Shown here piece after piece: positions 23,870-27,797 of a stretch of DNA of 64,000 bases. The position numbers and the translations under genes were made by a program. Every line of letters starts with the position of its first letter. The first letter of the stretch is position 1. The notes below the pieces were generated by a model that made no database searches, had not been told where the DNA came from, and was given only the letters and a program-made list of their open reading frames with translations. Source of the stretch: Bacilli bacterium (GTDB taxonomy: Bacteria; Bacillota_I; Bacilli_A; RF39; UBA660); assembly GCA_017409785.1 (NCBI GenBank), contig JAFQSD010000002.1:660597-724596 (forward strand), in the 5' to 3' direction.

Positions 23870-24664
23870 ATGAATAACAATTGTATAGAGATAATAGGCC
23901 TAAAATACTTAAATTTATTTGAGGATTTTAGTGTTGCCTTTGAAAAAGAAAAGTTCTTAACTATCTCAGGTTCAAATAATTGTGGAAAAACGTCATTTAT
24001 TAGAATAATTGATGGACAAGTACCAATTTTAAATACAATCCTTGTATATGGAAAAAAGTATGAGGACTATACTATTACAGAAATTAATACATTGATTAAA
24101 TCAGTTATACCTCTTGAGTTTACAAAAACACAAAATACAATAGAAGAAGAATTACTTTATCAGATTTCGTTTAATACAAAGAAAGAAATAAAGCAAAAAA
24201 GACTAAAAGAAATAGCAAAACAATTTAAATTAACTAAGTTTTTAACAAGAACTGTGGATAATTTATCTGATGAATTATTAATTCGTCTACAATTAGCTCT
24301 TGCTTTTATTTCATCTCCAAAAATAGTTTTAATTGATGACCTATCATCATATTTTTCGAAAAAAGATTTATTAGATATAACAAACTCTATAAAAGAAATT
24401 AATAAAAATGAAAAAATAACTATTATTATGATCACAAGTCAACTTGAATGCAATTTATTAAGTGATTATACCTATATTATTAGTAATGGAGAAATCGTTC
24501 TTGAAGGGAGTCCACTAGAAGTATTAGAAAAAGATAATATACTAAATAAGGCAGGATTAAACTTACCTTTTATGATGGACTTATCAGTAAAACTAAGAGA
24601 TTATGATCTGATAAAACAAATAGAATTAGATATGGATAGGTTGGTGGATACATTATGGAATTAA
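23870..24664 (+). CDS. EcfA1-like ATPase, partly degenerate
   Basis: 264 aa, in the place of ecfA1 after rplQ in Bacillus. P-loop GSNNCGKTS is intact. Other catalytic parts are altered: the ABC signature LSGGQ is LSDEL, the Walker B end is LIDD (Glu replaced by Asp), and the switch His region reads MITSQLE instead of ITHDL. The C-terminal region GLNLPFMMDLSVKLR ... DMDRLVDTLWN matches the EcfA1 tail that contacts EcfT, supporting the family call. GGGGAGG precedes the ATG. It overlaps the next gene by 10 bases. A vitamin-transport ATPase by descent, doubtful as an efficient enzyme. Confidence 0.75.
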   Translation: MNNNCIEIIGLKYLNLFEDFSVAFEKEKFLTISGSNNCGKTSFIRIIDGQVPILNTILVYGKKYEDYTITEINTLIKSVIPLEFTKTQNTIEEELLYQISFNTKKEIKQKRLKEIAKQFKLTKFLTRTVDNLSDELLIRLQLALAFISSPKIVLIDDLSSYFSKKDLLDITNSIKEINKNEKITIIMITSQLECNLLSDYTYIISNGEIVLEGSPLEVLEKDNILNKAGLNLPFMMDLSVKLRDYDLIKQIELDMDRLVDTLWN

Positions 24665-25440
24665 AATTTACCAACTACGAATTCAAGGAAAAAAAAATAT
24701 CATTTGAAATTGAAAAAGGAACAATTTATGGAGTTACTGGTCAAAATGGTAGAGACCTACTAGAAATAGTAGCCTTAAATAAGTTAAACAAGGGTATCTT
24801 AACAATTAATAATGAAAAAGTTACTAAAGACAATATAAATGAATATAGAAGAAGAATAAGTTTAATTGGACAAGACATTGAAACATCACAACATAAGCTA
24901 CTAAACATTATGATAGATCATATAAAAAGACATAATCTTACAATTAAAGATCCTATAAAGAAAATAAAAGATTCATTAAAAATTGTAGAATTGCCTGAGG
25001 ATATATTAAATAGAAATATTGAGACTATATCTTCATCAGAAAAGAAGTTATTTCAATTAGCATTAAGTCTACTGTCTAATCCAGACATAATTATTTTAGA
25101 CGAACCAATAAAATGCCTAGATAAAAGTAATGAGAAAAAACTTATTATGCTACTTCAACGTCTAAAAGAACAATTTTCTAAAACAATAATAATATCTTCA
25201 GATGATAGTAACACTTTATATAAATATACAAGTAACATGCTATTTATAAAGAATAATGATATTCTATTATCAGGACCAACAAACGAGCTTTACTTAAGAG
25301 TAGACTTTTTAAAAAGAAATAAGTTTGATATACCAGATATAATAGAATTTACATATATTGCTAAAAAGAAAAAACAAGTAAAAATAGATTATCATAAAGA
25401 TGTTCGGGACATAATAAAAGATATTTATAAACATATATAA
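24655..25440 (+). CDS. EcfA2-like ATPase lacking the P-loop lysine
   Basis: 261 aa, overlapping the EcfA1-like gene. The Walker A position reads VTGQNGRDLLE: the GKS/T of the P-loop is gone, so ATP binding at this site is doubtful. The signature is SSSEKK rather than SGGQK, and the switch His region is ISSDDS. Walker B LDEP is intact. The pattern is complementary to its partner, which keeps the P-loop but not the catalytic Glu. No ecfT follows: truA starts 13 bases after the stop. Confidence 0.7.
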   Translation: MELKFTNYEFKEKKISFEIEKGTIYGVTGQNGRDLLEIVALNKLNKGILTINNEKVTKDNINEYRRRISLIGQDIETSQHKLLNIMIDHIKRHNLTIKDPIKKIKDSLKIVELPEDILNRNIETISSSEKKLFQLALSLLSNPDIIILDEPIKCLDKSNEKKLIMLLQRLKEQFSKTIIISSDDSNTLYKYTSNMLFIKNNDILLSGPTNELYLRVDFLKRNKFDIPDIIEFTYIAKKKKQVKIDYHKDVRDIIKDIYKHI

Positions 25441-25453
25441 AAGGAGGGATATT

Positions 25454-26188
25454 ATGCGATTTTTAATAAAGTTCTCTTATGATGGAACCAATTATAGTGG
25501 ATTTCAAACTCAGCCTGGTTTAAATACCATTCAAGAAAAATTAGAAGAAGCTATAGCAATTATAAATAATGGTCAAAAAACTAACATAGTTGCAACAGGT
25601 AGAACTGATAAAGGTGTACACGCATTATGTCAATATGCACATGCAGATATTGATGTTGATATTACTGAATATAAATTAAAAAGAGCTATGAATAGTAACC
25701 TCCCAGATGATATACATGTTATTGAAACACATATTGTTCCAAATGATTTTCACGCAAGGTATTATGTTAAAAGTAAGGAATATAAGTATTATATTAACTT
25801 AGGTGAATATAATCCTCTAGAGAGAAATTATGTCTTTCAATATAATTACACACTTAATGTGGATAAAATGAAAGATGCTATTCAAGTATTTCTTGGAACA
25901 CATGATTTTAGAGCGTTTGTAACAGAAAGTAAAGAAAAAGAAAATTGTGTTAGAACAATAAATTATGTAAATGTAGAACAAGTAAATAATAAATTAATAA
26001 TAACTTTCCGTGGAGATGGCTTCTTACGTTATCAAGTAAGAAATATGGTGGGTATATTAATAAGAGTTGGAGAAAATAAAATATCCACAGAAGATGTGGA
26101 AAGAATACTAATGAGTAAGGATAGAACTACAACAGGAAAAACAGCTCCACCAGAAGGACTATACTTAACAAATGTGTCCTATGAATAA
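25454..26188 (+). CDS. truA: tRNA pseudouridine synthase A
   Basis: Makes pseudouridine at tRNA positions 38-40. 244 aa. Catalytic Asp in ATGRTDKGVHA, RFLIKFSYDGTNYSGFQTQPG at the start, and the FLRYQVRNMVGILIRVG motif late. Order truA-(three extra genes)-rplM-rpsI departs from Bacillus only by the insertion. Confidence 0.97.
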   Translation: MRFLIKFSYDGTNYSGFQTQPGLNTIQEKLEEAIAIINNGQKTNIVATGRTDKGVHALCQYAHADIDVDITEYKLKRAMNSNLPDDIHVIETHIVPNDFHARYYVKSKEYKYYINLGEYNPLERNYVFQYNYTLNVDKMKDAIQVFLGTHDFRAFVTESKEKENCVRTINYVNVEQVNNKLIITFRGDGFLRYQVRNMVGILIRVGENKISTEDVERILMSKDRTTTGKTAPPEGLYLTNVSYE

Positions 26189-26243
26189 CATTGAAAATTA
26201 ATATAAAATGTGATATATTATAATGCACTGAGGGGGAATGAAT

Positions 26244-26582
26244 ATGACAGCATTAGAGACATTAATTTATAATTCATTAGACCTAGCAACATTAGGTAGT
26301 GAACTATACTGTACAACAACATGTTTAGATGGAATGGATGATGAATCAAAGAGTACAACAATTGCTTGTTCTGTAACAACAGCTTTAAATAATATCCAAG
26401 TTCCAGACAGTGTAGTAATAGTAAGAGATGCACAAAGTTATGTTGAATCAATGTCAACAGAACAACTAATTGAGTTAGAACAACTATTAGCAGAAAAAGA
26501 ACTAACCTTTTCTGAAACTGATGCAGATAACGTTAAAGAACCTGCAAAAGTATATACTAAGACAAGTCCAAAGCAACAGTAA
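26244..26582 (+). CDS. Small protein with shared C-terminal helix motif (member 1 of 3)
   Basis: 112 aa, unrecognised. Start at ATG 26244, since GAGGGGG (26229-26235) is 8 bases upstream; an earlier ATG at 26238 is too close. N-terminal half is Leu/Thr rich (TALETLIYNSLDLATLGS). The C-terminal motif DAQSYVESMSTEQLIELEQLL recurs in the gene at 27423 (NAQAYVESLSEDRLAELAEML) and more loosely at 26648. No signal peptide. A terminator overlaps the 3' end. Function unknown. Confidence 0.65.
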   Translation: MTALETLIYNSLDLATLGSELYCTTTCLDGMDDESKSTTIACSVTTALNNIQVPDSVVIVRDAQSYVESMSTEQLIELEQLLAEKELTFSETDADNVKEPAKVYTKTSPKQQ

Positions 26583-26596
26583 TAGTTGCTTTTTTC
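26571..26596 (+). terminator. Terminator overlapping the 26244 gene end
   Basis: AAGCAAC (26571-26577), loop AGTAATA, GTTGCTT (26585-26591), then T tract. Confidence 0.8.
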
Positions 26597-26614
26597 ATTG
26601 CTTTATGGTATAAT
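26586..26614 (+). promoter_or_regulatory. Promoter for the 26648 gene
   Basis: TTGCTT (26586-26591), a 17-base spacer, TATAAT (26609-26614). The -35 lies in the 3' arm of the preceding terminator. Confidence 0.65.
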
Positions 26615-26647
26615 AAGAGCCGTTCAAAGAGAATAGGGGAAACGGTT

Positions 26648-27421
26648 ATGGAAGCAGTAGATTACAAAAAGAAAATTAAACTGTGTGAAAAACTTGGAGC
26701 CAATAAATTCCAAAAAGTTGTATTTAAGGTTGAAGAATTAAAATACAAGTTTATTAAAAAATTCATTCCTAAATACATAGAATGGTATGACAAAATATGC
26801 GATAGAAAAAGAAAAAAAGAACTAAAAAAAGCTAAAACGCCAGAAGAAAGAAAGTATATCGTAGAACATTATCGTCGTCAAAAAATGTTAATGCGAAAAG
26901 AATTTCACAGAGAGCAAAACAGAAACTATCATATGGATCCTAATAAGCCCACAGAAATATTAGAATATTTAAAATGGAATAAAGACATTCATATGAGAGG
27001 AATTATTAAAAATGCAATTGCAATACCATGCTTAGCAGTAGCAGCAGGATTTGGTCTTTGGCCAACAGTTGTAGTGCCATTCTTAGCATTAGAACTAGGG
27101 TCATTATTTATTAACTTCCAATGTGTAAATATTCAAAACTGTAATATATATCGATATAAACAACGTGAAGAAACAATGAAAAGACTTGAAGAAAGAAGAA
27201 CTAAAAAGAATGTTGAAGAATACAGCGAAGCTGGTGCAGCAATAAGTAGAAGTATGGCAAAAACAGATGATATTCCGTCACTAACAGAAGTAATCGATAG
27301 TATTCAAACAAAGGAAGAACTAGAACAATTGAGAAAACTAGTGCAAGTAACACTAGGTGCAAATAAAGCAGCATCAACAAGTCAAAATACGGATGCTAAA
27401 AGTTCAGGAGGGAAAAAGTAA
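26648..27421 (+). CDS. Membrane protein with basic N-terminal arm (member 2 of 3)
   Basis: 257 aa, unrecognised. Residues 1-110 are rich in Lys and Arg with no signal peptide. A hydrophobic pair spans about 117-158 (IKNAIAIPCLAVAAGFGLWPTVVV and FLALELGSLFINF) and could form a membrane hairpin. The C-terminal part ends with VIDSIQTKEELEQLRKLVQV, similar in pattern to the V-E-S-M/L-S...LxxLxxLL motif of its neighbours, then a Ser/Gly/Lys-rich tail. Overlapping ribosome site for the next gene (GGAGGG) is in its last codons. Confidence 0.6.
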   Translation: MEAVDYKKKIKLCEKLGANKFQKVVFKVEELKYKFIKKFIPKYIEWYDKICDRKRKKELKKAKTPEERKYIVEHYRRQKMLMRKEFHREQNRNYHMDPNKPTEILEYLKWNKDIHMRGIIKNAIAIPCLAVAAGFGLWPTVVVPFLALELGSLFINFQCVNIQNCNIYRYKQREETMKRLEERRTKKNVEEYSEAGAAISRSMAKTDDIPSLTEVIDSIQTKEELEQLRKLVQVTLGANKAASTSQNTDAKSSGGKK

Positions 27422-27422
27422 T

Positions 27423-27797
27423 ATGTTACAATCAACAACAATATTAGCAGAAACAGCAACAGTAGCAGGAGCTACAGGATTAACTGCAAAAACAGCAGTA
27501 AAATATGAAGTAGATGAAAAAGGAAACAAAACAGCAATTTTAGTTAACAAAAAAAGAGCAATAGTAGGAACAACTATAGGTTCTAGTGCAACAACAGCAA
27601 CTTATGGTTTTCAACAACAAAGCTTAAATAATACACTAAATAATGTTCATAACGCTCAAGCATACGTTGAATCATTAAGTGAAGATAGATTAGCTGAATT
27701 AGCAGAAATGCTTGATGCCAAAGGTGCAGAACTAGAATTAGTCGAACAAACAGCACTTGGAGAAATAGAAACAAAACAACCATATGTAAAAAAGTAA
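27423..27797 (+). CDS. Small protein with shared C-terminal helix motif (member 3 of 3)
   Basis: 124 aa. ATG 27423 is chosen because GGAGGG (27407-27412) lies 10 bases upstream; the frame is open further but without a site. N-terminal half is Ala/Thr rich with a glycine-containing hydrophobic stretch (IVGTTIGSSATTATYG). C-terminal motif NAQAYVESLSEDRLAELAEML is shared with the gene at 26244. Begins one base after the stop of the previous gene, so the two are coupled. Unknown function. Confidence 0.65.
   Translation: MLQSTTILAETATVAGATGLTAKTAVKYEVDEKGNKTAILVNKKRAIVGTTIGSSATTATYGFQQQSLNNTLNNVHNAQAYVESLSEDRLAELAEMLDAKGAELELVEQTALGEIETKQPYVKK

Follow-up and report, generated by a model that had tools for sequence, protein, structure and literature searches.

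The window, by which we mean the whole 64,000-nucleotide stretch of DNA that was analysed, contains two overlapping genes directly followed by truA (Table 1), and these open reading frames bear out a sequence-only reading of the region, in which a pair of ecfA genes lacks ecfT and has truA at once behind it. On position and sequence, the two products are EcfA1/EcfA2 orthologs: the locus lies between rplQ/SDR and truA both in genomes with ecfT and in those without it, TIGR04520 (ECF_ATPase_1) and TIGR04521 (ECF_ATPase_2) are the best-matching profiles, and the same assignment follows from a joint ATPase tree. The profile scores are far below equivalog level, with 99.4 bits against a curated NCBIfam cut-off of 315 for EcfA1 and 95.5 bits against 330 for EcfA2; the gathering score of 25 of PF00005 (ABC_tran) is passed with 48.3 and 57.4 bits, respectively. 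AF2 single-chain models of EcfA1 and EcfA2 have a mean pLDDT of 94.5 and 93.6, and the top PDB matches of both are ECF/CbiO ATPases over nearly the whole length. Behind the nucleotide-binding domain, each protein possesses a C-terminal domain, marked by conserved residues 222-264 in EcfA1 and 240-260 in EcfA2. The two further genomes of the genus have the pair at the identical locus, as do most of the family genera read, so that chance is not at issue. Between truA and rplM (26238-27797 of the window) there are three ORFs of 114, 257 and 146 aa, with counterparts of similar size in the two other genomes of the genus; considered as candidate partners of the pair, they gave no convincing Pfam match.

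Table 1. Positions in the window of the ecfA pair, its motifs and truA (T-less, genomes with the pair and no ecfT; full-T, genomes with full-length ecfT).
Feature	Positions	Strand	Remarks
ecfA1-like gene, degenerate ECF ATPase 1 without EcfT	23870..24664	+	264 aa; TIGR04520 is the best NCBIfam match
ecfA2-like gene, degenerate ECF ATPase 2	24655..25440	+	261 aa; TIGR04521 is the best NCBIfam match
10-nt overlap of ecfA1 end and ecfA2 start	24655..24664	+	exactly 10 nt in 53/59 T-less and 40/43 full-T genomes
truA	25454..26188	+	directly downstream, in the place of ecfT in relatives; starts 13 nt after ecfA2
EcfA1 Walker A, intact GSNNCGKT	23969..23992	+	G34, N36, G39 and K40 do not vary among 50 aligned relatives
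EcfA1 signature position, degenerate LSDEL (versus LSGGQ)	24263..24277	+	canonical-type in 7/59 T-less versus 30/42 full-T
EcfA1 Walker B Asp156 and Asp157 (catalytic Glu position)	24335..24340	+	Asp156 in 54/59 and Asp/Asn at 157 in 52/59 T-less; Glu in 32/42 full-T
EcfA2 Walker A position, lost: GQNGRDLL	24739..24762	+	Walker A in 13/59 T-less versus 36/43 full-T
EcfA2 signature in altered form, ISSSE; would lie opposite the EcfA1 P-loop	25027..25041	+	S126 in 18/19, S128 in 17/19 and E129 in 18/19 of the T-less clade
EcfA2 Walker B with Glu, IILDEP	25090..25107	+	Asp kept in 31/59 and Glu in 18/59 T-less genomes
EcfA1 C-terminal domain, residues 222-264, most conserved part	24533..24661	+	ten invariant positions in 50 relatives; D222 in 70/70 and N226 in 69/70 T-less
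EcfA2 C-terminal motif, residues 240-260	25372..25434	+	D249, D252, K255, D256 and Y258 invariant in 50 relatives

EcfA1 of the window has kept its P-loop and has lost LSGGQ as well as the switch His, as the sequence-only reading had stated; a Ser stands in place of the His. The catalytic Glu, counted there as lost, is not simply lost but is an Asp (IDD), a conservative change common to most T-less relatives. The description of EcfA2, with no GKS/T and with LDEP present, agrees with the sequence, and its switch His is replaced by Asp. In an ABC dimer, each ATP site is made up of the Walker A of one subunit and the signature of the other. The losses therefore fall most fully on one of the two composite sites, that of the EcfA2 Walker A and the EcfA1 signature, which lacks both elements. 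At the other site, the EcfA2 signature facing the intact EcfA1 Walker A retains its Ser and Glu in the altered form LSxSE within the window's clade. In the window pair, this site has an Asp where the catalytic Glu would be and lacks the switch His. Judged by motif, the window pair thus presents no consensus ABC site and no hydrolysis-competent one, and there is no transmembrane subunit at the locus.

EcfT was looked for in the window's genome, which is 93.8% complete, with three profiles: PF02361 gave no match, a profile of 30 EcfT proteins from the same family gave none at E ≤ 0.05, and a profile of 22 shortened or relic EcfT proteins gave none at E ≤ 0.1. In a class-wide sample, PF02361 matches 171 of 173 genomes outside the family versus 9 of 25 inside it; the profile therefore works in this class, and the loss of EcfT is, in this sample, peculiar to the family. 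The proposal that the pair serves a T component elsewhere is left unsupported for any homologous T component, since all three profiles are blank and the EcfA2 residues Q78 and E85, treated below, are gone as well. Two families of S components, PF12822 and PF07456, were searched, and neither has a match in the window's genome. PF12822 matches 15 of the 145 family genomes, mostly weakly; the six full-length PF12822 proteins that were fetched come from genomes that all match PF07456 too. PF07456 proteins, which we take to be putative S components working with the ECF module, occur in 31 of the 145 genomes, and 29 of these also have EcfT (family profile, E ≤ 1e-7), the two without an EcfT call at this threshold being G061, with a run of N after ecfA1, and G089, in which no truA was found. 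This co-occurrence supports PF07456 as a probable S component of this module. In G017, G003, G005, G065, G117 and G123 (L314-L319), the PF07456 protein is a membrane protein, and in several of them its neighbours resemble, by eye, an FMN-binding lipoprotein and lspA. Two family genomes (L134, G128:C13; L135, G094:C53) carry a second, separate ECF-like cluster, which encodes an S component of PF12822 and a short protein resembling EcfT.

EcfT has been lost repeatedly in the family. The locus was read in 127 family genomes, namely that of the window, the two further ones of its genus and 124 more; 19 of the 145 family genomes are outside this count. The order ecfA1-ecfA2-truA without ecfT was found in 59 of the 127, a scoring that itself requires open frames for the pair; 43 have a full-length ecfT (231 aa or more, with L131 and L234 as odd members of the group), 11 a shortened one and 2 a relic, while 9 have lost the pair (counting L230, though a 167-aa ORF stands in its gap) and 3 are unscorable (L095, L184 and L194). 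By profile, EcfT is detected in 51 of the 145 family genomes with PF02361 and in 72 with the family profile at E ≤ 0.05, of which 65 at E ≤ 1e-7. A further 79 named public loci, found by similarity to T-less EcfA1 and hence not a random sample, comprise 61 without T, 13 with a short T and 5 unscored, four of the last having T-like relics of 184-214 aa; the records are mostly of uncultured Bacilli or 'Tenericutes', largely from animal-gut samples as judged by their titles. Mapping the T-less label onto a quickly searched tree of seven marker proteins requires 18 changes, and well supported branches force no fewer than 9 of these; in the alignment behind the tree, 77 of 123 rows fill less than half of the retained columns, many of them with truA alone. 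In the ATPase tree, 19 of 22 T-less rows group together, with the shortened-T rows beside them.

The size of EcfT at the locus forms a series, from about 250 aa through shortened proteins of 194-228 aa and relics of 184-214 aa to none. In alignments viewed by eye, many of the shortened proteins still show the region of the second coupling motif (RFY-like), and the first is no longer seen. Six small membrane proteins in open frame, all at the exact place of EcfT and regarded as EcfT relics (L288:3897-4538, L290:6570-7136, L294:6576-7151, L308:6534-7085, L171:2925-3548 and L229:3834-4394), are 184-214 aa long and overlap the EcfA2 stop by 8 or 20-23 nt; the EcfT profile mostly misses them.

The erosion of the ATP sites in T-less pairs is ordered and asymmetric. 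Of the 59 T-less genomes, 51 have Walker A in EcfA1, 54 the Walker B Asp and 7 a signature of canonical type; the catalytic position is Glu in 3 and Asp or Asn in 52, and a single genome has the switch His. Among 42 full-T genomes, the numbers for Walker A, Walker B Asp, signature, Glu and His are 41, 42, 30, 32 and 28. In EcfA2, 13 of the 59 still have Walker A, 31 the Asp of Walker B, 6 a signature of canonical type, 18 the Glu and 4 the His, as compared with 36, 40, 34, 36 and 24 of 43 full-T genomes. The Fisher and sign tests run with the residue and dN/dS comparisons count related genomes as if independent, and no conclusion here rests on them. Walker A is found in EcfA1 only in 39 of the T-less genomes, in both proteins in 12, in neither in 7, and in EcfA2 only in one (L228), where the asymmetry is reversed. 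The 12 genomes with both motifs probably represent recent losses of T. In the most reduced genomes, EcfA1 is 149-165 aa long and has lost most of its P-loop lobe; the C-terminal parts persist there, and in most cases so does the 10-nt overlap.

Several such loci were viewed individually. EcfA1 has 149-172 aa in L190, L209, L224, L188 and L227, and EcfA2 mostly 181-191 aa (265 in L188), with the P-loops gone in the majority of these genomes and the C-terminal ends kept. In a deep clade, the genes upstream of ecfA1 (L124, L225 and L227), or upstream of truA where the pair is lost (L213), are by eye ksgA-, yabG-, veg-, spoVG-, yabP-, yabQ- and divIC-like genes and not ribosomal protein genes. Neighbours of the yabG/veg/spoVG type suggest sporulating members. 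As partners of the pair they were set aside, for they look like the local context of a deep clade of reduced pairs.

The C-terminal regions stand out in conservation, and with them a set of residues that distinguishes T-less from full-T proteins. Among 50 relatives, the invariant C-terminal positions of EcfA1 are G229, P233, F234, D237, L238, S239, K241, L242, Y245 and W263, and EcfA2 has M1, P143, D156 and P227 invariant outside its C-terminal motif. Trp263 was dropped as a functional mark, its invariance being probably forced by the overlapping ATG of ecfA2. The T-less alignment set (n=70) draws on both family genomes and named loci, each distinct protein being counted once. In this set, EcfA2 R251 is found in 68 of 70 (0 of 41 full-T), K259 in 66 of 70 (1 of 41) and Y191 in 63 of 70 (0 of 41), and EcfA1 D222 in all 70 versus 8 of 40 full-T proteins, 31 of which have Glu instead; part of this higher conservation comes from the T-less set being a shallower clade than the full-T set. 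The reverse is seen for EcfA2 E85, which drops from 41 of 41 full-T to 1 of 70 T-less proteins, and for Q78, which drops from 37 of 41 to 5 of 70. From their place beside the Q-loop, we infer that Q78 and E85 face EcfT. A figure legend of PMC4820897 has arginines of the EcfT coupling helices in contact with aspartates of EcfAA'.

T-less pairs are under purifying selection. In 12 disjoint T-less pairs of genomes, dN/dS of EcfA1 has a median of 0.10 (range 0.05-0.21) and that of EcfA2 one of 0.11 (range 0.04-0.26), next to medians of 0.08 for truA and 0.04 for the SDR gene in 12 disjoint pairs each; dS is near or above 1 in many pairs, which makes single dN/dS values rough. Within the window's genus, the three pairwise values are 0.33, 0.29 and 0.35 for EcfA1 and 0.24, 0.18 and 0.28 for EcfA2, with truA at about 0.08-0.10, and constraint is hence weaker there (0.18-0.35 for the two ATPases). 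In L211, L221 and L226, from which the pair is absent, the SDR gene overlaps truA by 1 nt in two cases and lies 1 nt apart from it in one. Such clean removal means that retention is not forced by the gene layout, and the loss of the locus in 9 of 127 genomes that its task is dispensable in some lineages. The earlier statement that the proteins are kept by selection thus holds for the T-less pairs at large, by their low dN/dS in 12 pairs and the residues invariant over 50 sequences, and has to be softened for the weaker constraint in the window's own genus and for those nine losses.

The interpretation that we favour, to which we give about an even chance, is that the window encodes a soluble EcfA1-EcfA2 heterodimer, held together C-terminally and around one nucleotide that is not turned over, with a scaffold or regulatory role independent of transport. 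The pair would be the half that remains of an ECF vitamin importer after loss of the membrane coupling subunit, EcfT, the motor having presumably turned in this family into a largely non-hydrolysing ABC heterodimer. EcfA1 and EcfA2 would be joined through their C-terminal domains, and in the window's lineage one nucleotide would probably be bound by Walker A and Walker B of EcfA1 together with the altered EcfA2 signature; the other composite site, of the EcfA2 Walker A and the EcfA1 signature, is predicted to be dead. Given an Asp at the catalytic position and the missing switch His, the nucleotide may act as glue or as a slow switch rather than as fuel. The task of the dimer would be most likely that of a scaffold or a nucleotide-responsive regulator of a partner. 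The sequence-only reading had likewise thought of a nucleotide-sensing or structural pair, which the retained EcfA1 P-loop and C-terminal domains would fit. According to PMC10368641, an ECF module no longer functions once either of its catalytic Glu residues is exchanged for Gln, and with both exchanged it forms a closed dimer with ATP bound. For degenerate sites of ABC exporters, PMC7756269 gives Glu to Asp as the second commonest change, reports slow hydrolysis and contains the authors' proposal of a stably bound ATP as a stationary hub. Both findings lend plausibility to a bound and hardly hydrolysed nucleotide. The EcfA1 P-loop is gone in 8 of the 59 T-less genomes, and nucleotide binding therefore does not suffice as an explanation for all of them. 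With somewhat less confidence, we propose for the family as a whole that a second, transport-independent function of EcfA1-EcfA2 predates the loss of the importer and alone stays selected after each loss of EcfT, the pair repeatedly becoming a pseudo-ATPase with one structural nucleotide and eventually little beyond a C-terminal dimer.

It is conceivable that EcfT was replaced and not lost, so that the pair still drives a membrane machine through a non-homologous or unrecognisably changed partner encoded elsewhere. We judge this unlikely, though it is the strongest rival: the stepwise shrinking of EcfT at the locus before it vanishes indicates that a partner can change beyond recognition, and purifying selection together with the kept EcfA1 P-loop is consistent with a working ATPase. 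However, no homologous T component is found in the genome even with the profile of shortened and relic EcfT, the EcfA2 positions fixed in the presence of T (E85 and Q78) are gone, and the catalytic Glu, the switch His and the second site have all been lost. A related explanation, to which we assign the lowest probability of all, is that EcfT is present and either absent from the assembly or too diverged to be detected. The incomplete genome would allow for it, as would the EcfT relics of relatives, which score below the general EcfT profile; yet all three genomes of the genus are without EcfT (G000 and G002 by the family and the short/relic profiles, G001 by the short/relic profile), the locus is fully assembled with truA in the place of EcfT, and many genera agree.

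The pair might also be the slowly decaying leftover of an importer without present function, which we regard as quite improbable. Stepwise erosion, shrinking proteins (EcfA1 down to 149 aa, EcfA2 down to 181 aa), nine complete losses and the relaxed constraint in the window's genus all speak for decay, and so does the occurrence of PF07456 almost only together with T, from which the importer as a whole appears to be gone. Against it stand two open frames in all 59 T-less genomes, which the scoring itself demands, the preservation of the 10-nt overlap in 53 of them, dN/dS values close to those of truA in the 12 disjoint pairs, and the invariant P-loop, C-terminal residues and derived fixed residues. 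The overlap of exactly 10 nt in those 53 genomes can itself be turned into an explanation, namely that the frames are kept for the translation of the operon, by coupling towards truA, and not for their products; the conservation of EcfA1 Trp263, explicable by the overlapping ATG of EcfA2, fits as well. We find this very improbable, because residues far from the junctions, such as those of the P-loop, are under selection and some pair-less genomes have truA directly behind the SDR gene.

ECF ATPases are the motors of vitamin and metal importers and are pursued as drug targets. The EcfA1/EcfA2 orthologs described here no longer meet the definition of an ECF transporter, and a caution follows that ecfA genes alone do not demonstrate vitamin uptake. 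That uncultured gut bacteria of a large family preserve the motor pair without its pump suggests a second job unrelated to transport. Its retention by selection in many lineages after the loss of the membrane subunit amounts to a natural experiment that separates transport from other roles of EcfA1-EcfA2, and the residues it offers for testing are the EcfA1 P-loop, D222, N226 and D237 of EcfA1, R251 and K259 of EcfA2, and the C-terminal helices. A text search of open-access papers, judged by titles and opening lines of abstracts, yielded no description of ECF ATPase pairs retained without EcfT.

The window pair resembles the group II ECF module EcfA1-EcfA2-EcfT (rplQ-ecfA1-ecfA2-ecfT-truA-rplM-rpsI) in gene order, in having orthologous ATPases and in the ECF-type C-terminal domain; unlike that module, it has no EcfT and no PF12822 or PF07456 S component, one of its ATP sites is dead by motif, the catalytic Glu is replaced and the switch His is lost. 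Soluble ABC ATPases without transmembrane domains are known in the SufC and ABCE1/ABCF types, to which the proposed pair would be alike in principle only, in having no membrane subunit. With the degenerate-site ABC exporters of the TAP, MRP1, TM287/288 and TmrAB types, as presented in PMC7756269, it shares asymmetrically altered composite sites and the change of the catalytic Glu to Asp. Those exporters, in contrast, keep one fully active site and their transmembrane domains, whereas in the window pair the second site is dead by motif, the remaining one has neither catalytic Glu nor switch His, and no gene for a transmembrane subunit lies alongside. The closest experimental picture comes from the L. 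delbrueckii ECF module in its ATP-locked EQ form (PDB 8bms), for which PMC10368641 gives bound ATP and no turnover; unlike the window pair, this mutant is engineered, has both sites occupied and is bound to EcfT.
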